Assembly (NCBI GenBank): GCA_036504735.1
Contig: DASXUQ010000017.1
Span: 283,349 to 347,348, forward strand
Reading direction: 5' to 3'
DNA length: 64,000 nucleotides
From: a bacterium
Lineage (GTDB): Bacteria; Electryoneota; RPQS01
The notes under the pieces were generated by a model. The model made no database searches. It had not been told where the DNA came from and worked only from the letters and a program-made list of their open reading frames with translations. Every line of letters begins with the position of its first letter. The first letter of the stretch is position 1. The position numbers and the translations under genes were made by a program. Shown piece by piece: positions 14,892-29,947 of the stretch.

Positions 14892-15952
14892 TGCAGGCTA
14901 CTCCGGCTGTCGAGGGTCGGGGCGATCAGGGTGCCCTGCGAGAGGGTCTGATTTCCGGTGGTGACGATGGTGTCACCGCGGGTGATGCCGTCGACGGCGA
15001 CGCGGTCACCCTGCGTACCGATGACGCGCACCGAGACCTTTTCGGCAGCGCCCTGACGGGCGCGGAAAATGATGGTGCGTCCCGCGTCGGGAAGCAGTGC
15101 GGCGCGGGGGAGGAGCAGACCGTCTTCGCTTTGGCGGGAGGCGATGATCGCGCGGGCGAACATGCCGCTGCGCAGCGCCTTATCGCCGGGCAGACGGATT
15201 TCCACGGGGAAGGTGCGGGATCCGGTGTTGGCGCGGCTGCCGATGGCCGCCACCTTGCCCTGAATGGTGTCGCCGACGGCGTCCACAATGATAGTGGCGG
15301 GAGCGCCGATGGATACGGATTCAAGATCACCTTCGGAGACCTGCACGGTCAATTTGAGGGCGCTGACATCCACAAGCTGGGCGATAGCCATGCCGCGCTC
15401 TACCATCTGTCCGACCTCGGTCATTTTGGCGGCGACGGTGCCGTTAAAGGGCGCGCGGATGGTGGCGTTATTATAGGTCTTGAGAGCCATGCGGTACTGC
15501 ACTTCGGCGCTTTTGGCGCCGAGGCGGGCGTTTTCAATATCAGCGTCGGAGATACTTTTCTCCGTATACAGTTTTTCGGCGCGGTCGAGATCGAGTTTCG
15601 CCTTGTCATAGGCGATTTTGGCGCGGTCGGAGTCGAGCTTGTACAGTTCGTCGTCGAGGCGCACCAGCGGCTGGCCTTCGCGGACGACATCGCCGACATC
15701 GACTTTGACTTCGAGTACGCGGCCACCGGTTTCTGCGGCGACGGTAGCTTCCTTGTTGCCGGTGAGCACGCCGGTCTCTTCGATGCGGCGGACGAACGGT
15801 TCGGGTTGGGCGACCATGGCACTCACGGAGACCACATTGGAATGAGCATCGGTGAGATTGGCGTTCTTGGCTTGCCGTTGGATGCGGCCCACGACCATGA
15901 TGACGATGATCAGCAGAATGCCGCCGTAGAGAAAGAGTCTGGGTTTATTCAT
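14888..15952 (-). CDS. RND periplasmic adaptor (HlyD/AcrA family)
   Basis: 354 residues. A single N-terminal membrane anchor (LFLYGGILLIIVIMVVGRI) is followed by the lipoyl/barrel-sandwich half-motif GRVLEVKVDVGDVVREGQPL near residue 80, a coiled-coil hairpin around 105-165 (YKLDSDRAKIAYDKAKLDLD), the second half-motif IRAPFNGTVAAKMTEVGQMV and beta-barrel and membrane-proximal domains. It bridges the inner-membrane pump and the outer-membrane channel encoded on either side. It starts 12 bases after the TolC-like gene, with an AGGAA upstream. Confidence 0.93.
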   Translation of the reverse strand: MNKPRLFLYGGILLIIVIMVVGRIQRQAKNANLTDAHSNVVSVSAMVAQPEPFVRRIEETGVLTGNKEATVAAETGGRVLEVKVDVGDVVREGQPLVRLDDELYKLDSDRAKIAYDKAKLDLDRAEKLYTEKSISDADIENARLGAKSAEVQYRMALKTYNNATIRAPFNGTVAAKMTEVGQMVERGMAIAQLVDVSALKLTVQVSEGDLESVSIGAPATIIVDAVGDTIQGKVAAIGSRANTGSRTFPVEIRLPGDKALRSGMFARAIIASRQSEDGLLLPRAALLPDAGRTIIFRARQGAAEKVSVRVIGTQGDRVAVDGITRGDTIVTTGNQTLSQGTLIAPTLDSRSSLQ

Positions 15953-15964
15953 GAGGAGGATTCC

Positions 15965-17272
15965 TTATTTCGCGTACGGGGGAAGTCCAGCCGCCACGCG
16001 GGCCTGCGCCGCGGCTACGAGCCGGTCGTATTTGGCCTGCGCCAGCGATACCCGGGCGACGAGTTCGTCGAGTTGCGCAGCATTCATTTCAAGGGTGGTA
16101 ATCTGGCCCTGGGCCAGTTTGGTCTGGGCGATGCGGCGGGCCTGCTCGGCCTGCTGCACGGCCAATTCGGCGGCGCTTTCACTGGCATTGGCCGCCTGAT
16201 AGGAGGTCACGGCATTTTGAAATTGCAGCAGCGCGCCGCGTTCCGCTTTGGAGAGAGTAAGTTCGGCTCCTTCCCAATCGGCATGAGCCTGCTGAGCCAG
16301 TCCGAGCGATTTGCCGCTGGGAATGGGAATGGTGAGGGCGAGACCGCCGTACAGCGAAACGGGAGTATTGGTGGAGTTCATCTTCCAGTTGCTGCCGGCG
16401 AACTGGCGGGCATACTGAATTTGGCCGCCGAGGATCGGCATCCAGGAATTGCGGTTAATGATGTACAGGTTGCGGTACATGGTTGCGAGGTCGCGCAGGG
16501 CTTCGATATCGTCGCGCTGCAAGACCTTGGCGGAATCTTCGGCGGCGATGGGAATGGTGTAGCCGGTGAGATCTCCCTCGACCGTGAGGGTTGTGTCCAT
16601 GGGCACACCGAGAAGTTCCTTGAGAGAAAGTTCAGACAGATGAAGGGCGTTTTCGGCCTGACGCAGGGCGGGGATCTGGTTACCGGCCTGAACTTCGGCC
16701 CGCAGGACATCGTAATCGCTCATGAGGCCGACGGCGCGCATCTGTTGAATGCGTTTGAGGGCACTGTCGCTGACGGCAAGGCTGGTCTGACGGGCGTTGA
16801 CGACCTCGCGCATGAGGAGCACGGTCCAGAAGCGCTGCATGACATCGAGTGAGACCGAGCGGTCGGTGCTGCTGATGAGATGGGCGTTGGAACGGCGCGC
16901 GGCGTAGGCGGCTTTCAGCCCGGACGAGACGCGCCCGAAGGTGTAGAGTGGCTGATTGAGCGTGGCCGAGGCGAGGGCATTGTCTTTCTGGTTCAGTTGG
17001 AGCAGGACGGTTTGTCCGCCGAACTTGACGGGAACCGTGGGGATTCTCCAATACTGCTGGGCGGCAACCTGAGCGGAAACGTCGGGCAGAGCGTTGGCCC
17101 ACGCTTCTTTGATGCGGCCACCGATGCGTTCGCGGTCAATTTGCGGATCCTGCATCTGCAGGGACCGCTGGTGGCCAAGTTCGATGGCCTGTTCGAGAGT
17201 CAGGGCCGATGCGCCGCCTGCGAAGAGCAGAGTGAGAAGCAGGGCGGCGACGGCAAAGCGAAGGTCCTTCAT
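15965..17272 (-). CDS. TolC-family outer-membrane efflux channel
   Basis: 435 residues with a signal peptide (LRFAVAALLLTLLFAGGASA) and two repeats of long helical hairpins typical of outer-membrane efflux proteins, e.g. LTLEQAIELGHQRSLQMQDP at the start and the ALLQFQNAVTSYQAANASES...LAQGQITTLEMNAAQLDEL helices near the end. It should form the trimeric exit duct for the adjacent adaptor and pump. Its ATG overlaps the TetR stop by four bases. Confidence 0.92.
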   Translation of the reverse strand: MKDLRFAVAALLLTLLFAGGASALTLEQAIELGHQRSLQMQDPQIDRERIGGRIKEAWANALPDVSAQVAAQQYWRIPTVPVKFGGQTVLLQLNQKDNALASATLNQPLYTFGRVSSGLKAAYAARRSNAHLISSTDRSVSLDVMQRFWTVLLMREVVNARQTSLAVSDSALKRIQQMRAVGLMSDYDVLRAEVQAGNQIPALRQAENALHLSELSLKELLGVPMDTTLTVEGDLTGYTIPIAAEDSAKVLQRDDIEALRDLATMYRNLYIINRNSWMPILGGQIQYARQFAGSNWKMNSTNTPVSLYGGLALTIPIPSGKSLGLAQQAHADWEGAELTLSKAERGALLQFQNAVTSYQAANASESAAELAVQQAEQARRIAQTKLAQGQITTLEMNAAQLDELVARVSLAQAKYDRLVAAAQARVAAGLPPYAK

Positions 17273-17895
17273 CCTTTGTCCTCGACGGAGGCTGTTTCGT
17301 CCTGGGTGACGATCAGAGCGTCGTAAAAAAGTTTAGTAGCAGTTTCGAGAACGGCGATCATATCAATTTCGGGATCAATCTGTTTACGGATATGCAGCCC
17401 GTTGTAGAGCGCGGAAATGGCCTGGCCGAGCCGCATGGCGTCTACGGGCCGGAACTGACCTTTGTTTACCGCATCCTCAAAGAGCCGGGTGGTGGTGGCG
17501 TCCCAGCGGCGGTGATATTCCTTGAGACGTTCATTGATTTCGGGGTAGCGCGGCGCGAGGGCGTATAATTGACTGTAAAGCATCTCGCGGTCGGGATACT
17601 GCAGATCGAGCTGATAGAGATCGCGATGCGACTTATAGAGGGCTTCGAGCCCGTATTTGTCGATGGAGGCGAGGCGCACGATTTCGCGCTGACTCTCTTC
17701 GACGCAGCGGTCGGTCAGTTCAAAGAGAATTTCCAGTTTGCTGCGGAAGTACCAGTAGATTGAACCCTTGGAAAGTCCGGCAAGTTTGGCGATGTCATCG
17801 ACGGAGCTGTTTTCGTAGCCCTGTGCGATAAACATCTTGGAGGCCGCATCGAGGATCTGTTCGCGGCGGGTGTCGCGGTCTAAATGTTCTGTCAT
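17269..17895 (-). CDS. TetR/AcrR-family regulator of the efflux operon
   Basis: 208 residues. The N-terminal helix-turn-helix is typical: RREQILDAASKMFIAQGYEN then SVDDIAKLAGLSKGSIYWYF; the C-terminal half is a variable ligand-binding helical domain. I chose the ATG at 17895 because GGAG lies five bases upstream, whereas the frame above it adds unlike residues. As first gene of the efflux operon with two ACTGAC-type repeats just upstream, it is expected to repress its own operon until a toxic ligand binds. Confidence 0.93.
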   Translation of the reverse strand: MTEHLDRDTRREQILDAASKMFIAQGYENSSVDDIAKLAGLSKGSIYWYFRSKLEILFELTDRCVEESQREIVRLASIDKYGLEALYKSHRDLYQLDLQYPDREMLYSQLYALAPRYPEINERLKEYHRRWDATTTRLFEDAVNKGQFRPVDAMRLGQAISALYNGLHIRKQIDPEIDMIAVLETATKLFYDALIVTQDETASVEDKG

Positions 17896-17906
17896 TTTAG
17901 CTCCAA

Positions 17907-17920
17907 ACTGACTGGTCAGT
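17907..17920. promoter_or_regulatory. Likely TetR-family operator 1
   Basis: ACTGACTGGTCAGT is a palindrome with 6-bp arms (ACTGAC/GTCAGT) just upstream of the TetR gene's ribosome site. TetR-family operators often have this TGAC-GTCA type of core. Confidence 0.55.
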
Positions 17921-17998
17921 ACGTAAGCCCACACTTTTCAGCGCCTTACCAAGTTCTATGAGCCCACTTGATGACAGCGCAAACTGACTACGAAATTG

Positions 17999-18325: not shown

Positions 18326-19768
18326 CTACTCCCAGTTTTGGCAATATTGTAGACCTAACCGGGAATAGTGTGCAAGGCGCAAAGGAAGCCTCTTGGCGAA
18401 ACCGTCCCAATTCCGTTGAACTTGGGGCGACCAGACCACTTCAGCCAAGGCAGCGATGCGGGGGAGGACCATGTACTGGCCGTGAGCAGTGGTGGGAACG
18501 TACTCGGTCCAGAGATTGGCCTGGGCACCGAGGATATGCTGAGCCTCGGACGCGGACAGTTCTGCGGGGATGGGTTCGAAGGCATAGACTTTGGAGAGGG
18601 GTGAGAAGCCGCCGAAGGCTTTGGGCTGGGTAGCGGGGTCGGCCTGATAGTGGTCGAAATAGAGATGGGAGGCGGGGCACATGACGACATCATGGCCTTG
18701 ACGGGCCGCAGCAATACCGCCTTCGGTGCCGCGCCATGACATGACGGCAGCACTCGCGGGCAGACCGCCTTCGAGGATTTCATCCCAGCCGATGAGCCGC
18801 TTGTTCAGTTTCTGGAGAATGCGGCCCACGCGAGTAATGAAGTAGCTCTGCAAACCGGCGAGGCTCTCGATGCCCTGCTCGCGCATGCGCTGCCGGCATT
18901 TGGGGCACTTTTCCCACTCGCGCTTGTCAGCTTCATCGCCGCCGATGTGGATGAACTCGCCCGGAAAGAGCGCGGCGACTTCGGTGAGGATGTTCTCGAG
19001 GAAGACAAAGGTCTCATCGTTGCCAGCGCAGAAGAGATCGGTGTCGGGCCAGTATTGACCGGACGCGACGGTAAAGGGGCCGCCGGTGCAGGAGAATTCG
19101 GAATAGGCCGCGAGAGCGGCAAGCGCATGGGCGGGCATCTCGATTTCGGGCACGACGGTGATTGAGCGATCCGCCGCATAGGTGACGATGTCGGCGATCT
19201 GCTCTTGGGTATAGAAGCCACCGTAATCGGCTATCTCGTTGGGATCTTGCGGAGGGCGCTCATTCCACGGCATGTCTTCGCGATTGACACGCCACGCGCC
19301 GATGCCGGTGAGACGGGGATAGCGCTTGATTTCGATGCGCCAGCCCTGATCATCGGTGAGGTGCCAGTGGAAGGTGTTGAGCTTGTGAAGGGCGAGGATG
19401 TCGAGGTAGCGCTTGATGAATTCGACGGGGAAGAAATGGCGGCTGACATCGAGGTGCATGCCGCGCCACGAAAAGCGCGGGTAGTCGCGGATGGTGAGGC
19501 ACGGAATGTGGGATTCTTCATTTACCAGTTGCCGCAGAGTCTGCTCGGCATAAAAATGCCCGGCAGGCGTGGGTGCATGGATGTGCACGGCCTCCGGGCT
19601 GACCACCAGTTCATAGCCTTCTGCGCCGAGTTCCGTATCGTGGACCATGTGCAGGGTGGCGATGGCTTCAATGCCGTCACTCTGCCAGCGTTCCAGCATG
19701 TGCGGGGAGAGCGCGAAACTACCGGGCTGCGGTTGAATGCTGACGGGCTGGGGGATGATAGAGATCAT
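18326..19768 (-). CDS. GH20 beta-N-acetylhexosaminidase
   Basis: 480 residues with an N-terminal GH20b-like domain (about 1-115) and a catalytic barrel. The catalytic Asp-Glu pair is in HIGGDEADKREW near residue 276; other family landmarks are RGMHLDVSRHFFPVEFIKRY, LNTFHWHLTDDQGWRIEIKR and AALAEVVWSPQ. It removes terminal beta-GlcNAc or GalNAc from glycans. There is no signal peptide, so it probably acts in the cytoplasm on imported oligosaccharides. Its ATG overlaps the GH130 stop by one base. It is the last gene of the eight-gene operon. Confidence 0.93.
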   Translation of the reverse strand: MISIIPQPVSIQPQPGSFALSPHMLERWQSDGIEAIATLHMVHDTELGAEGYELVVSPEAVHIHAPTPAGHFYAEQTLRQLVNEESHIPCLTIRDYPRFSWRGMHLDVSRHFFPVEFIKRYLDILALHKLNTFHWHLTDDQGWRIEIKRYPRLTGIGAWRVNREDMPWNERPPQDPNEIADYGGFYTQEQIADIVTYAADRSITVVPEIEMPAHALAALAAYSEFSCTGGPFTVASGQYWPDTDLFCAGNDETFVFLENILTEVAALFPGEFIHIGGDEADKREWEKCPKCRQRMREQGIESLAGLQSYFITRVGRILQKLNKRLIGWDEILEGGLPASAAVMSWRGTEGGIAAARQGHDVVMCPASHLYFDHYQADPATQPKAFGGFSPLSKVYAFEPIPAELSASEAQHILGAQANLWTEYVPTTAHGQYMVLPRIAALAEVVWSPQVQRNWDGFAKRLPLRLAHYSRLGLQYCQNWE

Positions 19769-20730
19769 CAGGCCATCCGCGCGTCGGAGAGCAGTTCTTC
19801 GATAGTGGTTACAGCCAGCCCCACGGCTGTGTCCGCCGCGCCGTAGTAGACGAGGACTTCGCTCGAAGGATCAGCGAAACCTTCAGTGTCTGCGTGTTTG
19901 ACGATGGCACCGGAAGGGAAGACGACATTGGGAACCTGGCCGGTGAGTTCATAAGGTTCGCGTGGCTCGAGGATGTTGTAACGGCTGCGCGCCAGCAGCT
20001 TGGAAGGGTCGTGCAGGTCGAGCAGGAAGACTCCGGCCTGATAGATGTTGGAACTGGCAAAATGAGTAGCGACACCGTGATAGATGCAGAGCCAGCCCTC
20101 GCGGGTCTTGATGGGCGGAGGGCCCGCGCCGATGAGTTCATCCCAGTAATGAAAGCGACCATCGAGCAGCGGTGCGACGGGTTTCCAGTGGAGCAGATCA
20201 TCGGACTCGGAAAGACAGATGGCGCTGCCGGAGACCGGGCCGCCGGCAAGTTGTACGCGGTTGGGGCGGTCGAGACGCAAAAATCTGCCGCCGATTTGCT
20301 CCGGGAAGAGCACGCCATTGCGGTTGTCATTTTCGGAGCAGATACCAAGGAAATCGAAACTCTCGAAGTCCACCGTTTTGGCAAGACCGAGGCGGCAGCC
20401 GTCCTCCATATCCATGGCGAAGAGGATGAAGTAATCGTCACCGAGGCGCGTGATGCGGGCATCGTAGCAGTGGAAGATAGTCTCTTTGACCTGTTCAAGT
20501 CCGCGAAAATGAACCATGCGCGGCGAGACGGTGAAGTCATGGCCATTGGTGCTGCGGGCGGTGAGGAAGAAGGTCTCACGCCCCCGGTTCTGCACACGGA
20601 GCATGAGCAGCACCTGTCCATTGAAAAGTACCGCGCCGGGATTGAAGACCGAACTGACATCCACGAGGTGCGGCGAAAGGGAAGGGATGCTATTTCGGGT
20701 TAAGATCGGATTCTTGGGCCAGCGTCGCAT
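19768..20730 (-). CDS. GH130 beta-1,4-mannoside phosphorylase
   Basis: 320 residues, the usual GH130 length, forming a five-bladed propeller. Landmarks are FNPGAVLFNGQVLLMLRVQ, CYDARITRLGDDYFILFA (catalytic Asp region), WDELIGAGPPPIKTREGW and the adjoining CIYHGV. GH130 enzymes cleave beta-mannosides with phosphate to give mannose 1-phosphate; those beside GH92 and GH20 genes act on Man-beta-1,4-GlcNAc from N-glycans. That specificity is inferred from context. No signal peptide. I chose the ATG at 20730: residues upstream of it do not resemble the family. This start lies 41 bases inside the preceding symporter gene. Confidence 0.92.
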   Translation of the reverse strand: MRRWPKNPILTRNSIPSLSPHLVDVSSVFNPGAVLFNGQVLLMLRVQNRGRETFFLTARSTNGHDFTVSPRMVHFRGLEQVKETIFHCYDARITRLGDDYFILFAMDMEDGCRLGLAKTVDFESFDFLGICSENDNRNGVLFPEQIGGRFLRLDRPNRVQLAGGPVSGSAICLSESDDLLHWKPVAPLLDGRFHYWDELIGAGPPPIKTREGWLCIYHGVATHFASSNIYQAGVFLLDLHDPSKLLARSRYNILEPREPYELTGQVPNVVFPSGAIVKHADTEGFADPSSEVLVYYGAADTAVGLAVTTIEELLSDARMA

Positions 20731-22675
20731 GGGCCGGAGCTTCCTTTGCTGAAGTGCGTTCGACAAAGCCGTCGTCGTGATGATCGCGGACCATGGTTTT
20801 GAGGCGGTGGAGCATGTCCTTGAGGTCACGCAGACCGCCGATGGAAAACCAGATAATGACCGCGATGGAGGCCACGACATTGATGAGAATAAAGACGCGC
20901 CAGAAGCTCATCCACGCGGAATCGGCGACAGTGGCGGAGAGATTGTAGAAGGTGCCGACGAGGAAGACGATGCTCCAGACGAGGGTCCATGCATAGGCGA
21001 CGACGTAAGTGATTTTGTCGCCGCGGGTGAACTCCTTGCCCATGCCGAGCATCCGCAGGCCGCGCACGGGAACCTCGTCAACGATCTGGTTTTCCCCGCG
21101 AATGGCATAGGCGCCGCGATGCAGCATCTTGTCCATGTCAAAGGCGTGGCGCTTGTCGAGCAACGACACCACAATGTAGATGATGGAGGAACCCGCCATG
21201 GCGATGCCCCAGAACATCTGGCCATTGATGGGAAAGTCAGGGTTGATCTGGTGAATGATGATGCCGCCGACGGCGATCACCGAGCCGGTAATCAATGCGC
21301 TCCAGGCCGCGGCGGTGGTGCCGCGCTTCCAATAGAGACCGCCGATGATGACCGCGCCGCTGCCGCCGGTGAAAATGGCCCCGGTGATGGCAAAGAAGAG
21401 GAAGATGTATTCACTCTGCTGGAAGATCATGCTGAAGAGGAAGATGAAAATGCAGACACCGAGAATCGAGAGTCTGAGCACTTTCAGATGCTGTTCCGGC
21501 GCGAAGGGCTTGCGGCGGAAGGGCATGATCACATCCTGAATGAAGATGCTGCCCCAGGAATGCAGATAGCTGTCGTGCGTGCCGATGGTGGCCATGAGCA
21601 TCACGGTGGTGAGCGCGCCCATCAGACCCAAGGGCAGAAGCTTGCTGAGGACGAGCGGCACGGTAAGCTGGCTCTTGAGGGCTTTGGAGGCTACGCCGCT
21701 GAGGATGTTGTTCACGCCGTCGGCATGGACCGAGAAGCCGGGGTGATGCATGACCGTGTAGGCGATGATGGGGACAAAGATCAGCATCAGCCACTTGGGG
21801 ATGTCGCGCAGATTGCCGAGGACTTCACCCATCTTGGCCTCATGGGCGCTCTTGGCCGACGAATTGTAGCCTTGAGTGCCCTGCCAGGACATCTTGCCAT
21901 AGATGACGCCGGCGACGCCGATCAGGAAATACCACAGGTTGAAGTCCTTGACATTGCTGGTGTGGTAAGGATTGATGAGCGAGGCGTCGGCGGGAGCGGT
22001 GATGAGCGCGGCGAAAATCTGCTGCCAGTCCACGGTCAGCAGAAAATAGATGACGATGACGATGAAGACGCTGTTGACGAAGATGCCCTGCACGAACTCG
22101 GTGATGATGACGGCAATCTGCCCGCCGGCGAAGAGGAAGTAAAGGGCAATGGAGAGAAACAGCGCCATGACCAGCGGAAACATGGGAATGTAGAGCCCGG
22201 CGATTTCAAGCTCGGACGGCAAACCGCAGAAGTAGATGAAGAAGCGCGCACCGACGGCGGGAAAGATACCGAAGTTAACGATGCCCGAGGTGAAGGCGAG
22301 CAGCCCCGCGAAGATGCGGAAGCGGCGGCTGTAGCGGATCTCGAAGAACTGCGCGACGGTGAGGGCGCGCGTCTGACGGAAGCGGTAGATGACCCAACCG
22401 GAGACGGTGATGGCCAGCAGCACCACACCCATAGTGAATTCCCACCAGCGCAGAGAGAAGCCCGCGATGTAATTCATCTCCCACATGCCGACAATGGTAA
22501 TGGATCCCAGCGCGGACATGCCCTGCGAGACGCTGATCATGTAGCGTCCGGCGGTGCGCCCCGCGCTGAGGAAGTCGGCGACGCTCTGCATGTAGCGCTT
22601 GCTGAGACGCACAAGGGCGATCAGGCCGGAGATGCAGACGATAACAATCAGCCAATCAAGAAACTTCAGATTCAA
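20690..22675 (-). CDS. Sodium:solute symporter (SSS family)
   Basis: About 661 residues with some 14 membrane helices. SSS landmarks: LSKRYMQSVADFLSAGRTAG, SVSQGMSALGSITIVG and RYSRRFRIFAGLLAFTSGIV. The frame is open further upstream but those residues are an artefact overlapping GH92. I place the start at a TTG (22675) that follows the GH92 stop by two bases and has GGAG eight bases upstream; no ATG fits the first helix (LNLKFLDWLIVIVCISGLIA). It likely imports a sugar released from N-glycans with sodium. The long C-terminal tail after the last helix is cytoplasmic and overlaps the GH130 start. Confidence 0.88.
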   Translation of the reverse strand: MNLKFLDWLIVIVCISGLIALVRLSKRYMQSVADFLSAGRTAGRYMISVSQGMSALGSITIVGMWEMNYIAGFSLRWWEFTMGVVLLAITVSGWVIYRFRQTRALTVAQFFEIRYSRRFRIFAGLLAFTSGIVNFGIFPAVGARFFIYFCGLPSELEIAGLYIPMFPLVMALFLSIALYFLFAGGQIAVIITEFVQGIFVNSVFIVIVIYFLLTVDWQQIFAALITAPADASLINPYHTSNVKDFNLWYFLIGVAGVIYGKMSWQGTQGYNSSAKSAHEAKMGEVLGNLRDIPKWLMLIFVPIIAYTVMHHPGFSVHADGVNNILSGVASKALKSQLTVPLVLSKLLPLGLMGALTTVMLMATIGTHDSYLHSWGSIFIQDVIMPFRRKPFAPEQHLKVLRLSILGVCIFIFLFSMIFQQSEYIFLFFAITGAIFTGGSGAVIIGGLYWKRGTTAAAWSALITGSVIAVGGIIIHQINPDFPINGQMFWGIAMAGSSIIYIVVSLLDKRHAFDMDKMLHRGAYAIRGENQIVDEVPVRGLRMLGMGKEFTRGDKITYVVAYAWTLVWSIVFLVGTFYNLSATVADSAWMSFWRVFILINVVASIAVIIWFSIGGLRDLKDMLHRLKTMVRDHHDDGFVERTSAKEAPAHATLAQESDLNPK

Positions 22676-22677
22676 GG

Positions 22678-25600
22678 CTATTTCTCCGCTTCCCGTTCCG
22701 TGCCCCAGCTCTTGTTGGGCACCGGGCCCATGATGAAGGCCAGCGTACCGCCGCTGATAATGTCGTTGTGCGTGATGAAAGTTGAGGTCAGCGGCTTGCC
22801 GTTGAGCGATACCGACTGCACATAGATGTTCTTGTCGGAGACGTTCTTTGCGGTAACGGTAAAGGTTTTGTCTTTGCCTACGTGGATGGAGACCTTGTCG
22901 AGCAATGGCGTTCCGAGCTGGTAGGTGCCGTCGGCGGGATTGACCGGATAGAAGCCCATGGCGCTGAGGACATACCACGCGCTCATCTGGCCGCAGTCTT
23001 CATTGCCGCAGAGGCCGTCGGGTTTGTCGGTGTAGTAGTCGCGGCAGATGCGGTGCACGATTTCCTGCGTCTTCCACGGCTGCCCGGCGAAATTATAAAG
23101 ATAGGCGATGTGGTGGCTGGGCTCATTGCCCTGAGCGTAGAGGCCGACGAGGCCGGTGACATCCGGCGGCGCGCCTTCGTCTTCGGCGACCGGACTCTGG
23201 TGGAACAGCGAATCGAGTTTTTGCGAGAACTTCTGTTTGCCGCCCATGAGGGAGATCAGTCCGGGAACATCCTGTGGCACATACCAACTGTACTGCCAGG
23301 CATTGCCTTCGGTGTACTGCGGCTGCTTTTCGGTGCCGAAGCGGGGATTGAAGGGGGAAACCCAACTGCCGTCGGAATTGCGGCCACGCATGAAGCCGCT
23401 GGTGGAATCGTAGAGGTTGCGGTAGTAGAGGGCGCGCTTGGAAAAGAGGTCGTAGTCGCCGGTCTTGCCGAGAGACTTGGCCATTTGGGCGATGCACCAG
23501 TCATCATAGGCATATTCGAGAGCCTTGGAGACGGACTCGCGCTCTTTGTCGGCGGGGATGTAGCCGTAGGGCTTGACGGGGGGTACGGTCACGTCCTTCT
23601 CGACGATATTCCCCGCCGCGTTCACCGCCACCTTCATTTGGGTGGATGATGCGACGGCTTCAATGGGCAGTTCGAAGGTGTTGAGGCCGGTTTTCAGGTT
23701 GACTTGCTGCATGCTCTTGCCGTTCAGAGAGACGGTTGCCGCGACAGGTGGAGCGGAATGCTCGACCATCACCTTGAGAAACTGGTATGGCTTACCGCTC
23801 TCTTCTGCGAGCGCGTACTCCGGCTCAACCCGGACTTCTTGGGTGACCGAATGCTCGAACGTCATGTACCAGTCGGGACTGTTTCCCTTTTCGCCGACTA
23901 CAACCAGCGTCACAGGCTTGCCGGGAGTGAAACTTCGGGAATTGGCGGTCAGGAACATGTTGCCAAAGAGGTCATCGTACCGATCCCGGCGTTGCGGCAC
24001 AAACGTTAGCTCGGCGCCATTATCACCACGCACCGTCCATTGAGTTCGGGAAGTGTCTTGTGCCGTGCCGAAGCTCAGCCAGTACTTGTTGTTGACGTAT
24101 ACCCGGAACTCGTGCCCGCCCTTTCCGGTTGCCACCCCGGCAGCCCACATGAAGGTGACGGGTGTGGCTTGCTTGAATACGGGCACGGGTTCCGTTTCCC
24201 ACTTCACCTCCATCCCGCCGGTGGTGGCGCGGGAAATGCGAGCCTGTGTAACGTAAGGATAGGAGGAATGATAGGAGATCTCCTCACCGGATAGGGTCTT
24301 TGCCCAGCCCTTGAGGATGTGAGTGCCTGCGGGCAGGGAGCTTTCCCCGGCGGCGAGAGTGTTGACCTGCTCGCGCTGAAGCTGCGTCAATTTCTCGCTC
24401 AGCGATGCCGGGGTGACGAGGTTATAATATTCCAATCCGCGCTTGTTTTGCGTGGCGCTCTTCTTCATGGCGTCGAAGGCCTCCTTGGGATCGAAACCCT
24501 TGAAGCCTTTGAAAAAAGCATCGGCGATAACGGGGATGGAATGGTAGCCGATCATGCACCAGGTTTCATTGCCGGTGAGGGGCCAGACGGGAAGCAGGCC
24601 GCCGTCCCGGTAGAAGGCGAGCATGGAGTTGACGAAATCGGCGACGCGGTCCGGTTGGAAGATAGTGTAGAGCGGGTGCGCGGCGCGATAGGTGTCCCAC
24701 AAGGAGAATGTGCAGTAATTATCGAAGCCTTTAGCCTGATGGACCTTGCCGTCGCCGCCGCGATATTGGCCGTCCACGTCATCGAAGAGCGTAGGGGCGA
24801 GCATGGTGTGGTAGAGGGCGGTATAGAAGGTCGCCTTGTCCGCCTGACTCTTGCTCTCGACATCGAGGGTGCCGAGTTCCTTCTGCCAGGCGTCATTTGC
24901 TGCCAGTTTCACGCCGTCAAAGTCCCAGTTCGGAATTTCCGCCGCAAGATTCTTGCGCGCACCTTCCACCGACACGGCGGAAATGCCCACCTTCACCAAA
25001 AGGGGAGCGCCGTCGCGTGTGGAGAAGTAGAGGGCCTCGCGAGTCGGCCTGCTGGGCTCTCCCTTCCCCGGAGCGAACCTACCCAACATCCATGAGCCGA
25101 AGAACGGCTTGGAGAACTTCGCCACAAAATAGACGTGCTGTTCCCGCGCCCAGCCTGCAGAAGTGCGGTAGCCCGAAACTGTGACCGAATCCTCGAGAGT
25201 GATGCCGCGTTCCAGCGGGGTGTCATCATTGCCGTAGTTCACGTCCACCACCACGCAGGCGGAATCACTTTTGGGGAAGGTGTAACGATGAAAGCCCGCG
25301 CGCTTGGTAGCCGTCAGATCAACATCAATGTTGTGATCAAGCAGCTTCACCGCATAGAAACCCGGCTTGGCATGCTCCTGGTCATGGGAGAACCTGCAGC
25401 GGATCAGCGAATCCATGCGGGGCTCGCCAAGGGTAGGCGTGAGGAGAATGTCCCCCAGATCGGCGCAACCTGTGCCGCTGAGGTGTGTGTGGCTGAAGCC
25501 GACGAGGGTGGTGTCGGAATAGTGATAGCCGCTGCACCAGTCCCAGCCGAAGGTGCCACCGTCGGGACTGAGTTGCACCATGCCGAAGGGCAAGGACGCG

Positions 25601-25731
25601 CCGGGGTAGGTGTGACCGTGGCCATTGGTGCCGATCATGGGATTGACATAATCTACGGGCCGCAGATCATCTCGGGCTGCGGCCATGAAGGCGCAGCAGC
25701 AAACAAGGAAAAGAAGGGTAATGAGTTTCAT
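22678..25731 (-). CDS. Secreted GH92 alpha-mannosidase with a large inserted domain
   Basis: 1017 residues against about 750 for typical GH92. Signal peptide 1-19. The N-terminal GH92 beta-sandwich starts VDYVNPMIGTNGHGHTYPGA, and the (alpha/alpha)6 catalytic domain ends with GNEDCGQMSAWYVLSAMGFY, the calcium/acid-base hallmark. Exo-alpha-mannosidases of this family remove alpha-mannose from high-mannose N-glycans. Residues of about 440-715 are extra and split the catalytic domain between KRGLEYYN and GYIPADKERESVSKALEYAY, which are adjacent in ordinary members. The insert is beta-rich (VTFMWAAGVATGKGGHEFRV) and may bind carbohydrate. It lies 18 bases after the FHS permease gene. Confidence 0.94.
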   Translation of the reverse strand: MKLITLLFLVCCCAFMAAARDDLRPVDYVNPMIGTNGHGHTYPGASLPFGMVQLSPDGGTFGWDWCSGYHYSDTTLVGFSHTHLSGTGCADLGDILLTPTLGEPRMDSLIRCRFSHDQEHAKPGFYAVKLLDHNIDVDLTATKRAGFHRYTFPKSDSACVVVDVNYGNDDTPLERGITLEDSVTVSGYRTSAGWAREQHVYFVAKFSKPFFGSWMLGRFAPGKGEPSRPTREALYFSTRDGAPLLVKVGISAVSVEGARKNLAAEIPNWDFDGVKLAANDAWQKELGTLDVESKSQADKATFYTALYHTMLAPTLFDDVDGQYRGGDGKVHQAKGFDNYCTFSLWDTYRAAHPLYTIFQPDRVADFVNSMLAFYRDGGLLPVWPLTGNETWCMIGYHSIPVIADAFFKGFKGFDPKEAFDAMKKSATQNKRGLEYYNLVTPASLSEKLTQLQREQVNTLAAGESSLPAGTHILKGWAKTLSGEEISYHSSYPYVTQARISRATTGGMEVKWETEPVPVFKQATPVTFMWAAGVATGKGGHEFRVYVNNKYWLSFGTAQDTSRTQWTVRGDNGAELTFVPQRRDRYDDLFGNMFLTANSRSFTPGKPVTLVVVGEKGNSPDWYMTFEHSVTQEVRVEPEYALAEESGKPYQFLKVMVEHSAPPVAATVSLNGKSMQQVNLKTGLNTFELPIEAVASSTQMKVAVNAAGNIVEKDVTVPPVKPYGYIPADKERESVSKALEYAYDDWCIAQMAKSLGKTGDYDLFSKRALYYRNLYDSTSGFMRGRNSDGSWVSPFNPRFGTEKQPQYTEGNAWQYSWYVPQDVPGLISLMGGKQKFSQKLDSLFHQSPVAEDEGAPPDVTGLVGLYAQGNEPSHHIAYLYNFAGQPWKTQEIVHRICRDYYTDKPDGLCGNEDCGQMSAWYVLSAMGFYPVNPADGTYQLGTPLLDKVSIHVGKDKTFTVTAKNVSDKNIYVQSVSLNGKPLTSTFITHNDIISGGTLAFIMGPVPNKSWGTEREAEK

Positions 25732-25749
25732 GGGCGAAGTTATCCTCGT

Positions 25750-27036
25750 TCAGGCGGCCACAGTTTCGGAGACGGTAGCGGGTTCCGTGGCGGAACGTTG
25801 CACATGCCGGGAACCTTTGACCGCATAGTAGATGATGTACAGGTAGCAGAGGGCGGGAAGAATGAAGGCATGATGGATGCCGATACTGTCCGCGAGAGCG
25901 CCCTGCAACACGGGAATGATGGCGCCGCCGACAATGGCCATGACCAGAATGCTCGAACCCTGGCTGGTAAGGTTGCCGAGGTCCTCAATGCCCAAGGTGA
26001 AGATGATGGGGAACATCACGGAATTGAAGAAGCCCACAGCCAGAATGGTGAACATGGCCGCGGAGCCGGAGATGAAAATAGTGGTGAACACCAAAAGCGA
26101 AGCAACCGTAGCAGCAACGGCAAGGACTTGACGGGGCTTCAGTTTTTGCAGGAGGGCCGAACCGATGAAGCGACCCACCATGGCGCTGCCCCAATAGTAG
26201 GAGACAAAACCGGCGGCGGTGGCTTCGACGAGACCGGCAATCTCCGGCTGACCGAAGAAGTTCACCAGAAAGCTGCCGATGGAGACTTCCGCGCCGACAT
26301 AGAGGAAGATACCGAGGGCGGCGAGGCGCAGATGGCGATATTTGAGGGCGTCGCGCAGTTTGGCGCTCTTGGTGTTGTGATTCTCGACCGCGTCAATGAC
26401 GGGAAGCTTGATCAGACCCATCACCACGGCGAGCAGGAAGAGGGCGCCGGCAAGCCAGAGATAGGGCATCTGCACCGAAGCGGCCTTGGCCAGTTTGGCG
26501 GCGTGCTGCTCGGCGGCGGGAAGCGCGGCGACCTGTGCGGCGGTGAGCGTAGTGCCGAGGATCAGCAACCCGCCGATCAGGGGCGCAGTGGTGTGCCCCA
26601 AGGAATTAACAGCTTGTGCCAGATTCAGACGGCTGGAGGCGGTTTCGGGCTTTCCCAGCACCGCCGCATAGGGATTGGCAGCGACCTGCAGAACCGTGAT
26701 TCCCGTAGCCAGCACGAAGAGCGCGGTCAAAAAGAGCGGATAAGACATCATTCCGGCGGCGGGATAGAACATAAGCGCGCCGATACCGCCCGTGGCCAGT
26801 CCGACCACCACGCCCTTCTGATAGCCGAGGCGGGCAATGACCTTGCCCGCAGGGATGGACATGATGAAATACGCGGCGAAGAAGGTGAACTGAATCAGCA
26901 TCACCCGCGTGTAGTTCAGATCGAAGACCGCTTTCAGATGCGGCACGAGAATATCATTCAGGCATGTGAGAAAGCCCCACATGAAAAACAGTGTCGTAAC
27001 AATCCCGAATGCGGATTTATAGCCTTTCTTTTCCAT
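25750..27036 (-). CDS. FHS-family sugar permease (FucP/GluP-like MFS transporter)
   Basis: 428 residues with 12 predicted helices. Family landmarks: LFFMWGFLTCLNDILVPHLK, GYQKGVVVGLATGGIGALMF and LQVAANPYAAVLGKPETASS, all typical of fucose/glucose/galactose:proton symporters. Within this operon it most likely carries mannose, GlcNAc or a short oligosaccharide across the inner membrane, alongside the SSS symporter. The ATG has AGGA six bases upstream. Confidence 0.92.
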   Translation of the reverse strand: MEKKGYKSAFGIVTTLFFMWGFLTCLNDILVPHLKAVFDLNYTRVMLIQFTFFAAYFIMSIPAGKVIARLGYQKGVVVGLATGGIGALMFYPAAGMMSYPLFLTALFVLATGITVLQVAANPYAAVLGKPETASSRLNLAQAVNSLGHTTAPLIGGLLILGTTLTAAQVAALPAAEQHAAKLAKAASVQMPYLWLAGALFLLAVVMGLIKLPVIDAVENHNTKSAKLRDALKYRHLRLAALGIFLYVGAEVSIGSFLVNFFGQPEIAGLVEATAAGFVSYYWGSAMVGRFIGSALLQKLKPRQVLAVAATVASLLVFTTIFISGSAAMFTILAVGFFNSVMFPIIFTLGIEDLGNLTSQGSSILVMAIVGGAIIPVLQGALADSIGIHHAFILPALCYLYIIYYAVKGSRHVQRSATEPATVSETVAA

Positions 27037-27066
27037 GCGATGTCCTGTAGTGTGGCGGGAATGGAA

Positions 27067-28092
27067 TTAGCGGGACTTGGTGGAGTCGATCCAGAAATAG
27101 GAGTCCTGACGGATGTGGGCCTGGGCGCTGCCGACGTCGAGGGTAATGGTGAAACCACTGTCGGTAGCCGCGACGCGGGGAAGCGGGGATCCTGCGGGGA
27201 CGGGTGACTGCGTGGCCCAGACCTGATGCCGGTCATAGTACTCTTTCTCGACATAGTAGAGTTCGTGCAGTACGCGGCGCGCGTCGGCGAAGGGATCGGC
27301 ACGCAGGGAATCGGCGCCGGGAGCGCGAGTGGAAAATTGGACAAGGCCCCACATTTCCGGACGGTGCATGTTGATGACGGCTTGCGGCGACCAGACCCAG
27401 TTGTCTTCCGGCTTGCCTTCCACCTTTTTGCAGGCGCCGTTGACGATGGTGGTCAGCCATTCCACGCGGGAGAAATTGATGCGCCACTGCTCGGCAGGCT
27501 GGGGAGGCTTGGCGGTGTGGCTGATCCTCTGAAGCGATGCCCACGGCATGGCGATTTCCACACTCCAGCCGCTGTCGGTGTCTGCGGGATTGTTCAGGGT
27601 GCCGTTTACGAAAACTGCGGTTTTGATGCCGTCGATGTTCCACGAATCGTCGGCGTGACCGTTATCCTTATAGGGTTTGTTCAGAAAAAGATCCCAGCCG
27701 GTGTTCAAGGCATTGATCTCGAATTCACCGTATTCGAAATTGTCGCCGTTGGGGTCCATAAAGACTTCGAAATCATTATCATGAAAGATAACATCGTCGC
27801 GCTTGGCAATCGTGGCCCAGACCTGCGGTTCCTCAAGGGTCGCGGCAATGTAGAAATTCTGATCATCCCACAGCATCTTTGCATGAGTCTGGAAGCGCGG
27901 CGCAGGTTTCTTGCTGCCTTCAATGTCTACAAAGTTGTCGGTCCAAGGAGCGCTCTTCCAGGCGGCGTCATCAAGCTTGCCGTCGATGGTCACCGGGTTT
28001 GTTGCGCGGTAGCAGATGTAGCCTTTGGGCGCTTGGGCGCAGGCGGAGAGGGCCAGGCCGAGCACTACAGCCAGTAACAGGAATGTTCTCAT
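27067..28092 (-). CDS. CBM9-like carbohydrate-binding exported protein
   Basis: 341 residues. Residues 1-18 form a signal peptide ending near ALSACAQA, which could also be a lipoprotein signal (LSAC). The body is a DOMON/CBM9-like beta-sandwich: VTIDGKLDDAAWKSAPWTDN, AKMLWDDQNFYIAATLEEPQ, DNDFEVFMDPNGDNFEYGEF. Stand-alone CBM9-like proteins occur in polysaccharide loci and are thought to hold glycans at the cell surface. No catalytic residues are recognised. Its ATG overlaps the ROK kinase stop by four bases. Confidence 0.88.
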   Translation of the reverse strand: MRTFLLLAVVLGLALSACAQAPKGYICYRATNPVTIDGKLDDAAWKSAPWTDNFVDIEGSKKPAPRFQTHAKMLWDDQNFYIAATLEEPQVWATIAKRDDVIFHDNDFEVFMDPNGDNFEYGEFEINALNTGWDLFLNKPYKDNGHADDSWNIDGIKTAVFVNGTLNNPADTDSGWSVEIAMPWASLQRISHTAKPPQPAEQWRINFSRVEWLTTIVNGACKKVEGKPEDNWVWSPQAVINMHRPEMWGLVQFSTRAPGADSLRADPFADARRVLHELYYVEKEYYDRHQVWATQSPVPAGSPLPRVAATDSGFTITLDVGSAQAHIRQDSYFWIDSTKSR

Positions 28093-29051
28093 GCCTTGTT
28101 CAGTTCCTTGTAGATGAGCGCGGCGGCTCCAAGAATGGCGACGTTGCCATGAGTGAGACCCGAAGGCAGCAGTTTGACCTTGTTCTTGAAGATCGCCAGC
28201 ATGTTCTCTTCCATGTACCTGTGAGTGGGCTTGAAGATGAGGTCGCCTGCCTTGGCCAGTCCGCCGAAGAGGAAGATGGCTTCAGGGCTCAGGTGCGCCA
28301 CGGAATCGGCGAGCTTGAGGCCGAGAATGTAGCCGGTGCGGTCGAAGGCCTGGAGCGCGATGGTATCTCCGCGCTGCGCGGCCTCGGCGACCATCTTGGA
28401 AGTCATGGTATCGAAGGGAATATCGCGCAGCTCGGACGCTTCGCGCGAATTAGCGAGCAGTTCGAAGACAGTGCGTACAATGCCGCCTGCGGAGGCGTAG
28501 GTTTCGAGGCAGCCGTGGCGGCCGCAGCCACAATCGCGGCCTTGCGGATCGAAGATGGTGTGGCCGATCTCTCCGGCAAAACCATCATGACCGTACAGCA
28601 GTTCGCCGTTGACGACGATGCCGCTGCCGACACCCGTGCCGAGCGTGATGACGATGAAGTTGCGCATGTCCTTCGCGCCGCCGAAGAGCATCTCGCCGAT
28701 GGCCGCCGCGTTGGCGTCATTGGTCAGAGCAACCGGAACCGGGTAGAACGTGCGGAACATATCGGCGAGGGGCACAATCCCTTTCCACACCAGATTGGGC
28801 GCATGCTCGATGGTGCCGTGATAGTAGTTGCCGTTAGGCGCGCCAATGCCGATGCCGGTGAGGGCAACGGGCGTTTTGCTTGCGGAGATCATACGGTCGA
28901 TCTCGGTGCGCACAGCCGCTACATACTTATTGACATCCGGATAATCGGTGGTGGACAGATCGGCCTGGGCAAGACACTGGCCATCATGGGCGACGAGACC
29001 GATCTTGGTATTGGTCCCGCCGATGTCCATTCCAACAACGACGTCAGTCAT
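28089..29051 (-). CDS. ROK-family sugar kinase
   Basis: 320 residues with the ROK signatures: phosphate-binding VVGMDIGGTNTKIGLV, GIGAPNGNYYHG, the glycine-rich TLGTGVGSGIVVNGE and the zinc site DCGCGRHGCLETYAS. It phosphorylates an imported hexose such as glucose, mannose, GlcNAc or ManNAc; the exact sugar cannot be read. I chose the ATG at 29051 over that at 29060 because GAGG lies nine bases upstream of the former and abuts the latter. It couples the operon's hydrolases to central metabolism. Confidence 0.92.
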   Translation of the reverse strand: MTDVVVGMDIGGTNTKIGLVAHDGQCLAQADLSTTDYPDVNKYVAAVRTEIDRMISASKTPVALTGIGIGAPNGNYYHGTIEHAPNLVWKGIVPLADMFRTFYPVPVALTNDANAAAIGEMLFGGAKDMRNFIVITLGTGVGSGIVVNGELLYGHDGFAGEIGHTIFDPQGRDCGCGRHGCLETYASAGGIVRTVFELLANSREASELRDIPFDTMTSKMVAEAAQRGDTIALQAFDRTGYILGLKLADSVAHLSPEAIFLFGGLAKAGDLIFKPTHRYMEENMLAIFKNKVKLLPSGLTHGNVAILGAAALIYKELNKA

Positions 29052-29068
29052 AGGGTGCATCCTCAGAG

Positions 29069-29947
29069 TTAGGGGAGAGCGATTTCGGCGATGACGGGGA
29101 GATGATCCGACGGGAAGCGTTCATCGCTTTTGAAATCGGCCAGCGTAGCATGGCGGATGACGCGCACGCCATCGCTGACAAAGACGAAATCAATGCGGTC
29201 ACCGATCAGACCCTTGTGAACGTCAAACCCGCTGAAGGTCTTCAGCGGGCCGTGATGCGGGGACTCACAGATGGTCAAGGCATCGGCCAGATGAATGGCT
29301 TTGCTGCTGTCTTTTGCGGTAAGCGCAGCATAGGGAGCCTCCGTATCGGTGGAATTGAAGTCCCCGGTAACGACGGCGGGCTTGTCCTTGGCAATGTGGC
29401 GGATTTGCCGCAAAAGCAGTTTCGCGCTTTCTTCCCGGGCTGTAACGCCCATGTGGTCGAAATGGGTATTGAAGACAAAAAAGACGCGGCGCGTCTGCTT
29501 GTCCTGCAATTTGGCCCAGGTGACGATGCGATTCAGCGCGGCATCCCAGCCTTTGGAAGGCTTATCGGGAGTGGGAGAGAGCCAGAAGGTGCTGTCCTTC
29601 AGCAAGACAAAGCGAGTGGCATCGTAGAAGATGGCGGAGAATTCACCGGCTTCGGCACCGTCATCGCGCCCCTTGCCGCACCAGCGGAAGCCACGGAGCG
29701 CGGCGGATAGATCGTGCACCTGACTGATCAGGCCTTCCTGAATTCCGAAAACGTCCGGCGCATGATAGCGGACAGTGGAGACCACGAAGTTTTTGCGGTA
29801 TTTCCAGTTGTCGAGGCTGTCCGCGGGGTTGTCGTAGCGGATGTTGTAGGTCATGACGCGCACGGCGGAATCCCGCGCGGAAGCATCAAGCACGATCAGA
29901 AAGCAGAGCGCAACCACGGCGTAAAGGGGGAAGCGGCGCAGGTTCAT
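29069..29947 (-). CDS. Exported endonuclease/exonuclease/phosphatase-family protein
   Basis: 292 residues. The ATG at 29947 begins a signal peptide (MNLRRFPLYAVVALCFLIVL then DASA). The EEP (DNase I-like) fold is clear: VMTYNIRYDNPADSLDNW, FGIQEGLISQ (metal-binding Glu), VFNTHFDHMG (catalytic His-Asp), VVTGDFNSTD and the final FPSDHLPVIAEI. EEP proteins of this exported type are frequent beside GH92 genes in Bacteroidota glycan loci; a phosphodiester on glycans or lipids is a plausible target, but this is inference. It is the first gene of the eight-gene operon, eight bases upstream of the next stop-start gap. Confidence 0.9.
   Translation of the reverse strand: MNLRRFPLYAVVALCFLIVLDASARDSAVRVMTYNIRYDNPADSLDNWKYRKNFVVSTVRYHAPDVFGIQEGLISQVHDLSAALRGFRWCGKGRDDGAEAGEFSAIFYDATRFVLLKDSTFWLSPTPDKPSKGWDAALNRIVTWAKLQDKQTRRVFFVFNTHFDHMGVTAREESAKLLLRQIRHIAKDKPAVVTGDFNSTDTEAPYAALTAKDSSKAIHLADALTICESPHHGPLKTFSGFDVHKGLIGDRIDFVFVSDGVRVIRHATLADFKSDERFPSDHLPVIAEIALP

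Follow-up and report, generated by a model that had tools for sequence, protein, structure and literature searches.

How might an outer-membrane bacterium feed on N-glycans, the sugar trees on proteins of animals, plants and fungi, if it has no SusC/SusD pair with which to capture them? The question is raised by a 64,000-nucleotide stretch of DNA (the window; assembly GCA_036504735.1, contig DASXUQ010000017.1, positions 283,349 to 347,348) from a bacterium of the phylum Electryoneota, whose assembly comprises 4.16 Mb in 19 contigs, the window lying in contig C17; an outer membrane was deduced from its TonB receptor and RND/OEP genes. Eight genes at 18326-29947, all on the minus strand, form one compact unit by Pfam matches and open reading frame coordinates. 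They are transcribed in the order EEP-ROK-CBM9-FHS-GH92-SSS-GH130-GH20 with intergenic gaps of 8, -4, 30, 18, 2, -41 and -1 bp, using the starts judged likely (for SSS a TTG at 22675, 2 bases past the GH92 stop; for GH130, 20730), and 29947 is the ATG of EEP. An earlier interpretation of the letters alone (the sequence-only reading) had described these families as one tight N-glycan operon, and the unit is borne out, with gaps of -41 to +30 bp and all eight families above the Pfam cut-off. Enzyme families for alpha-mannose (GH92), for mannose beta-linked to N-acetylglucosamine (Man-beta-GlcNAc; GH130) and for GlcNAc (GH20) are present by Pfam, with predicted activities. We consider that the operon probably serves the catabolism of N-glycan fragments, and does so with no SusC/SusD pair.

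The unit has no SusC/SusD pair, GH18, GH85 or regulator gene, as the sequence-only reading had held. Model searches of the whole 4.16 Mb genome for SusC/SusD, endo-glycosidases and PNGases returned no match to SusD (PF07980), GH18, GH85, PNGase F or PNGase A, and 10 TonB plug-domain hits, all outside the window, in which no SusC-type TonB receptor was found. Across a phylum set of 39 genomes, host included, SusD and GH85 each matched 0/39, and the SusD model matched Bacteroides ihuae in a control set of 14 genomes.

A CBM9-SSS-GH130 core within the phylum and beyond

Relatives of the window GH130 were found in 20/39 phylum genomes and close orthologues in 9/39 (the host and others at 52-65% identity; at least 342 bits, the next match scoring 176). 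A CBM9 orthologue was present in 10/39 (at least 267 bits; next match 46) and an SSS orthologue in the same ten (556-1467 bits; next genome 43), while the GH130 orthologue occurred in nine of these ten and was missing from the remaining 29. Fisher tests of this co-occurrence, which ignore shared ancestry, gave 1.6e-9 for SSS versus CBM9 and 4.7e-8 for GH130 versus the CBM9-SSS set. GH130, CBM9 and SSS stand together in 8/8 orthologous loci from other phylum genomes (in L042 with GH130 on the opposite strand), and the tenth genome, G020, carries CBM9-SSS-GH38-PNGase F-GH20 without a GH130 orthologue. This distribution suggests a conserved core of an exported CBM9 protein, a putative SSS importer and a predicted cytoplasmic GH130 in place of SusC/SusD. 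In G029 (locus L040), from a different genus of the same family, ROK-CBM9-FHS-GH92-SSS-GH130-GH20 recur in identical order on one strand at 51-78% identity, and this recurrence of 7/8 genes with order and strand kept puts the operon beyond chance. EEP was found neither in the G029 cluster nor in the 10 kb preceding it; beside the core it occurs in the window and, out of eight orthologous loci in other phylum genomes, in L044 alone (genome G024). In the phylum stretches examined, GH92 and FHS accompany the core in the window and G029 only, and GH20 does so in 7/10 cluster genomes.

The neighbours of the core bear on its substrate. GH38 lies beside it in G004, G010, G016, G017, G020 and G021 (a divergent GH38 in G023), GH99 in G010, and PNGase F is in or abutting it in G016 (across a contig break), G017, G020 and G021; the PNGase-family enzymes characterised so far have N-glycans as their sole target (excerpt of PMC10154615). 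N-glycan use, which the sequence-only reading had argued by analogy with Bacteroides, is thus more strongly supported by the PNGase F, GH99 and GH38 genes beside the orthologous core. The PNGase F model matched in 13/39 phylum genomes and 0/14 controls. Matches above 90 bits came from five phylum genomes, four of which are CBM9-SSS cluster genomes (five versus ten among 39, P 0.011 only, shared ancestry ignored) and the fifth of which, G028, has PNGase F without the cluster. PNGase_C matches of 51-73 bits (Pfam cut-off 25), found in 8 additional phylum genomes and, in addition to its strong match, once in G028, were partial matches to longer proteins and were not counted as PNGase F; longer proteins with such a partial PNGase-F C-terminal-like domain occur in G029, G032, G027, G030, G033, G034, G035, G028 and G004.

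Relatives of the GH130 clade were encoded in 364 stretches picked out by a pattern scan of 84,980 species genomes, and the best 80 of these stretches were examined; their record titles name Ignavibacteria, Bacteroidota, Aminicenantes, Acidobacteriota, Zixibacteria, KSB1, Eisenbacteria, Planctomycetota and others, and three pattern matches on viral contigs included no GH130 relative. SSS was found in 52 of the 80 loci, CBM9 in 46 and either one in 65; SSS or CBM9 was present in 34/36 loci having at least 5 kb on both sides (long loci). The remaining families were GH94 (27 of 80), GH38 (22), ROK (12), GH125 (11), GH3 (10), GH20 (9), GH92 (8), PNGase F (8, every one with GH38), TonB receptor (8), GH99 (2), FHS (one match, 28% identical) and EEP (none), with an alpha-mannosidase (GH38, GH92 or GH125) in 36/80. 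GH94 and GH20 never occurred together in the 80 loci (P 0.019). Since the 36 long loci show a weaker effect (GH94 in 13, GH20 in 5; P 0.09), mutual exclusion with GH94 standing in for GH20 is a lead only.

Two further arrangements were seen among these loci. A second locus type (L074-L077, L081-L083, L085, L098 and L114) holds all or part of GH94-GH130-CBM9-GH125-GH3-TonB receptor, is mostly from Ignavibacteria or Bacteroidota by title, and often includes GH92 and ROK, the one ROK scanned (L076) having a helix-turn-helix; L098 and L114 come from MAGs named Melioribacter. A uroporphyrinogen-decarboxylase-like gene lies near GH130 in 7/80 loci (L091, L094, L097, L108, L109, L119 and L133, with 347 amino acids in L133).

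The GH130 enzyme and its likely substrate

The GH130 sequence by itself does not decide the substrate, and the N-glycan call therefore rests on gene context. Single-sequence matches were TM1225 (199 bits) and UhgbMP (143), and a profile search gave TM1225 at 236 bits with RaMP2 and UhgbMP level (189.5 and 189.2 bits). TM1225 and RaMP2 are mannooligosaccharide phosphorylases and UhgbMP acts on Man-chitobiose (excerpt of PMC8950772). The sequence-only reading had set a GH130 of plant-mannan type against its own proposal, and on this it does not come away clean, the nearest solved relative being the mannan enzyme TM1225, followed by UhgbMP and RaMP2. The operon could accordingly be read as serving plant beta-mannan or glucomannan oligosaccharides, with a beta-1,4-mannooligosaccharide phosphorylase like TM1225 or RaMP2 and loosely associated other genes; the frequency of GH94 in the wider loci (27/80), one representative of which matches cellobiose phosphorylase (519 bits) above chitobiose phosphorylase (443), would fit. 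We judge this improbable: an alpha-mannosidase and a beta-N-acetylhexosaminidase are not needed for beta-mannan, Pfam found no beta-mannanase family among the 27 window proteins (GH5, GH26 and GH113 were not searched genome-wide), the orthologous clusters hold PNGase F, GH99 and GH38, and GH92 is also present in 6 of the 27 GH94 loci.

The Tyr-Asp motif Y89-D90, with D90 the catalytic Asp (UhgbMP Asp104), is invariant in 81/81 GH130 orthologues; Tyr-Asp is typical of GH130_1/2 and Glu-Asp of the hydrolase-containing group (excerpt of PMC4599007). R137, R155, H218 and Y230 of the window GH130 are likewise invariant in 81/81 and align with UhgbMP R150, R168, H231 and Y242. We take these four UhgbMP residues to form part of the phosphate site, and the lysine before IGAGP (UhgbMP K212) presumably to be a further phosphate ligand. 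That lysine was found in none of the 81 aligned orthologues and in none of eight further phylum orthologues; the site is a one-residue gap relative to TM1225, RaMP2 and UhgbMP, and the residue preceding the glycine motif in the 81 orthologues is L (29), F (25), R (11), N (9), Y (3), I (2), T (1) or W (1), never K. An AlphaFold2 model (pLDDT 93.8) gave Z values of 38.3-42.7 to GH130 phosphorylases (and the mannoside synthase Uhgb_MS) versus 34.6-35.4 to the group that includes the hydrolases 5a7v and 3qc2. A hydrolase assignment, considered from an invariant WDE motif, was dropped because several other phylum GH130s have WDE together with the lysine and the model lies nearer the phosphorylases. 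Phosphorolysis, proposed by the sequence-only reading, is accordingly likely from the retained Tyr-Asp and R/R/H/Y residues and the modelled fold, but less safe than it had been stated, because the clade is without the lysine that serves as a phosphate ligand in UhgbMP. Eleven other aligned phylum GH130s (L048-L051, L053, L054 and L056-L058) are of the Glu-Asp type and located elsewhere; some have WDEMKIG-like and some WEESHIG-like motifs, so that several GH130 kinds coexist in the phylum.

Protein location, transport and proposed order of breakdown

Export was called by a simple N-terminal hydrophobicity test rather than a trained predictor, at the best of the candidate starts unless stated, and the counts include four contigs twice (L041/L119, L042/L138, L043/L134 and L045/L144). 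In the window, EEP, CBM9 and GH92 pass the test and GH130 and GH20 fail it, the same outcome that the sequence-only reading had given for GH92 (exported) and for GH130 and GH20 (no signal peptide). Across loci, a hydrophobic N-terminus was found in CBM9 (52/53), PNGase F (9/10), GH92 (11/11), GH99 (3/3), GH3 (9/9) and EEP (2/2); at the start nearest the alignment the counts fall to 15/53 for CBM9 and 1/3 for GH99 and are the same for the other exported families. No such N-terminus was found in GH94 (0/27), GH38 of the a/b type (0/17) or GH125 (0/12, three of which begin with Tat-like motifs), and counting at the start nearest the alignment brings GH130 (3/83) and GH20 (3/15) both to 0. Among the CBM9 proteins, 21/54 have a loose lipobox-like motif. 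Removal of alpha-mannose outside and breakdown of Man-GlcNAc inside, as the sequence-only reading had placed them, are supported as predictions.

Because GH130, GH38 (a/b) and GH94 are without signal peptides, the substrate should cross the inner membrane as a disaccharide or larger. The SSS symporter is the best candidate importer of the N-glycan fragment, since these enzymes appear cytoplasmic and SSS is the only window permease conserved with them. The sequence-only reading had left import to either of two permeases; one of them does recur, SSS being found in the same 10 genomes as CBM9, but the two are not equal candidates, FHS being rare. An N-glycan operon in which SSS carries a monosaccharide (e.g. 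mannose or GlcNAc), with core fragments split outside or entering otherwise, would agree with the few solved SSS relatives, which are sugar or small-solute symporters. We hold this to be unlikely, though deserving of weight, since disaccharides or larger must reach GH130 (0/83 at the expected start), GH38 a/b and GH94 in the cytoplasm, and since, of the window's two permeases, the only transporters compared, SSS alone is conserved with them.

In the route that we propose, the substrate, transport, chemistry and order of steps are all predicted. The outer membrane might be crossed by porin diffusion or through a TonB receptor encoded elsewhere. The exported EEP may remove phosphate from mannose where it is present, and the exported GH92 would trim alpha-mannose, probably alpha-1,3-linked, from N-glycans freed by other organisms or on glycopeptides. 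Free mannose or GlcNAc could then enter through the FHS permease and be phosphorylated by the ROK kinase, while the CBM9 protein, periplasmic or membrane-anchored, would hold the core fragment for import by the SSS symporter. In the cytoplasm, GH130 would release the beta-mannose that is joined to the GlcNAc core, phosphorolysis with mannose-1-phosphate as product being the most likely chemistry, and GH20 would split the remaining GlcNAc-GlcNAc, a step in which GH94 may replace it elsewhere. We offer more tentatively, as a possibility at somewhat under even weight, that this is a SusC/SusD-independent N-glycan module common to many phyla, in which a dedicated subfamily of SSS (sodium:solute) symporters, together with an exported CBM9 protein, imports whole core oligosaccharides (still alpha-mannosylated in the GH38-bearing relatives) for cytoplasmic GH38, GH130 and GH20 or GH94, with a GH130 clade whose phosphate site has been rebuilt.

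Several observations weigh against N-glycan import and breakdown by this route, among them the missing lysine and the mannooligosaccharide phosphorylase that is the nearest solved GH130. Known SSS proteins carry small solutes, and oligosaccharide transport by this family would be unusual; near the GH130 of L046 lies a further SSF-family protein, unrelated to the first. Exported-type N-termini were seen in 2/3 divergent GH38c proteins. Alpha-mannosidase, PNGase F and GH99 are all missing nearby in 44/80 wider loci (19/36 long loci), and the GH130 clade may for this reason not be N-glycan specific everywhere. The searches for GH18, GH85, PNGase F and PNGase A found no glycan-releasing enzyme in the host genome, and with regard to GlcNAc catabolism NagB reached only 34.8 bits there against a cut-off of 236.9.

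Gene products, surroundings and known systems

The eight products are listed in Table 1. Closest to the window EEP in PDB are 3g6s (202 bits), 3mpr (175) and 4c1r ('MANNOSYL-6-PHOSPHATASE', 174 over residues 38-281); 3g6s and 3mpr, EEP structures with function unnamed, score as high as or above 4c1r, and a resemblance to mannosyl-6-phosphatase is possible, as a candidate only. This potential identity and the CBM9-SSS pairing had both escaped the sequence-only reading. With a mannosyl-6-phosphatase and GH92 trimming side chains, the operon could instead serve fungal (yeast) alpha-mannan or phosphomannan; the 4c1r match agrees with this, and GH92, GH99, GH38 and GH125 serve alpha-mannan too (excerpt of PMC10154615). 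Such a use seems to us very unlikely, because a GlcNAc core, and not beta-1,2-mannose caps, is what GH20 and a GH130 of the Tyr-Asp (GH130_1/2) type suit, and because relatives' clusters have PNGase F partners; the searches made did not extend to GH76, the backbone enzyme to be expected for such a use.

Table 1. Predicted products of the eight-gene unit, in order of transcription (window positions)
Product	Position	Strand	Evidence
EEP-family phosphatase, exported; candidate mannosyl-phosphate phosphatase	29069..29947	-	PF03372 62.8 bits, hydrophobic N-terminus
ROK sugar kinase without N-terminal DNA-binding domain	28089..29060	-	PF00480 198 bits
CBM9-like glycan-binding protein, exported, lipobox-like LSAC	27067..28092	-	PF06452 (CBM9_1) 48.5 bits
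FHS (GluP/FucP/NagP-like) MFS permease	25750..27036	-	MFS_1 75 bits, NCBIfam gluP 354
GH92 alpha-mannosidase, exported, with inserted module	22678..25731	-	PF07971 645 bits, PF17678 (GH92N) 250
SSS-family symporter, 661 amino acids from TTG	20690..22675	-	PF00474 (SSF) 67.2 bits
GH130 mannoside phosphorylase-like enzyme, predicted cytoplasmic	19768..20730	-	PF04041 163.5 bits
GH20 beta-N-acetylhexosaminidase, no signal peptide	18326..19768	-	PF00728 408 bits, PF02838 63 bits

The ROK protein is a candidate GlcNAc, mannose or glucose kinase, its substrate not fixed among these because its scores fall below every equivalog cut-off (ROK_glcA 223 bits, cut-off 260). The FHS permease probably carries monosaccharides, scoring above the NCBIfam cut-off for gluP (354 bits versus 202.55), just below that for fucP (279.5 versus 280.4) and below that for NagP (202 versus 625). 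For SSS, the SSF match exceeds its cut-off of 22.8 and TIGR00813 reaches 90 bits against a cut-off of 184, with weak resemblance (23-31 bits) to vSGLT, SGLT1 and 5nv9. The best solved match of GH20 is 6q63 (482 bits), which we take to be a B. thetaiotaomicron complex-N-glycan enzyme.

The closest solved matches of the window GH92 are 7zgm (689 bits; by its deposition the plant-N-glycan-specific GH92 of B. massiliensis) and 6f8z (675), both alpha-1,3-mannosidases, followed by 6f91 (630) and the 2wvx group (421). The linkage is probably alpha-1,3, as judged from the two best solved matches; no conserved +1-subsite residues are reported between these two enzymes (excerpt of PMC9522356). An insert of about 290 residues (approximately residues 432-720) interrupts the catalytic domain; it is present in the L040 GH92, is not in the host genome's other GH92 (contig C12), and had no Pfam match over the cut-off. 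GH38-like proteins in L133, L092 and L047 carry the same type of insert N-terminally, so that two unrelated alpha-mannosidase families share one module. An AlphaFold model of the insert from 3 sequences (pLDDT 61.9), with Foldseek matches mostly to GH2 at TM-scores of 0.19-0.25, was too weak and was not used.

The unit is flanked by 313 bp of free sequence upstream, beyond which a gene matches PF02089 below the cut-off, and by 391 bp downstream, beyond which lies a TetR gene (17269-17934). The latter belongs to a TetR-OEP-HlyD-RND efflux operon (11751-17934) directly downstream of the glycan unit, and TetR was rejected as regulator of the glycan operon because it adjoins the RND efflux genes. 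Elsewhere, the window holds a C1-type peptidase (1215-2684), an M6 peptidase (5900-8284) and a gingipain-like C25 peptidase with a type IX secretion tail (32754-37778); a second C25 copy, 62% identical, lies approximately 67 kb further on the same contig (G000:C17; L180 12344-17350).

Among described systems, the S. pneumoniae N-glycan locus has GH20C, ROK, GH38, GH125 and GH92 with EndoD and the ABC transporter NgtS-P1-P2 (excerpt of PMC5215778). It is alike in GH92 action before import, ROK, GH20, core import, GH38/GH125 finishing in the cytoplasm (in that paper's model) and no SusC/SusD, as far as the excerpt goes; it differs in its ABC transporter, GH85 releasing enzyme and Gram-positive envelope, where the window combines SSS and CBM9 with GH130 in an outer-membrane bacterium whose genome yielded no releasing enzyme. 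Bacteroides N-glycan loci include that of BT1033, a GH130 Man-GlcNAc phosphorylase (excerpt of PMC10619541), and loci for plant N-glycans that combine PNGase, GH92 and GH130 with SusC/D pairs (excerpt of PMC9522356). They share the enzyme logic of GH92 and GH130 (with PNGase and GH20), the closest solved match of the window GH92 being a Bacteroides enzyme, whereas the window is without the SusC/SusD pair that defines them and has a CBM9-SSS core, no SusD in genome or phylum and a lysine-less GH130 clade. The yeast alpha-mannan loci of B. thetaiotaomicron, which we take to include mannosyl-6-phosphatase, likewise have an EEP-type phosphatase beside GH92, but the window is without SusC/D and has GH20 and a Tyr-Asp GH130. 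The nix cluster of Xanthomonas campestris is a SusD-free N-glycan cluster of an outer-membrane bacterium; it encodes hydrolases and a TonB-dependent transporter and is not known to include GH130. The window shares the SusD-free, outer-membrane setting and differs in having GH130 and no TonB receptor gene. A Xanthomonas GH92 is mentioned in an excerpt of PMC10154615. No description of a CBM9-SSS N-glycan system was found in the literature searched, which comprised titles and abstract starts of top results, with most subscription papers outside it.

If the proposed route is true, eukaryotic glycoprotein sugars would be recycled by bacteria of many phyla that are poorly known and for the most part environmental, along a route missed by locus searches keyed to SusC/SusD. 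A symporter family would join the short list of N-glycan importers, CBM9 proteins would gain a role in uptake, and the GH130 clade, CBM9 and SSS would provide a marker trio for finding such loci. The GH130 clade without one phosphate-site lysine would also be a test case for what determines phosphorylase versus hydrolase activity in GH130.

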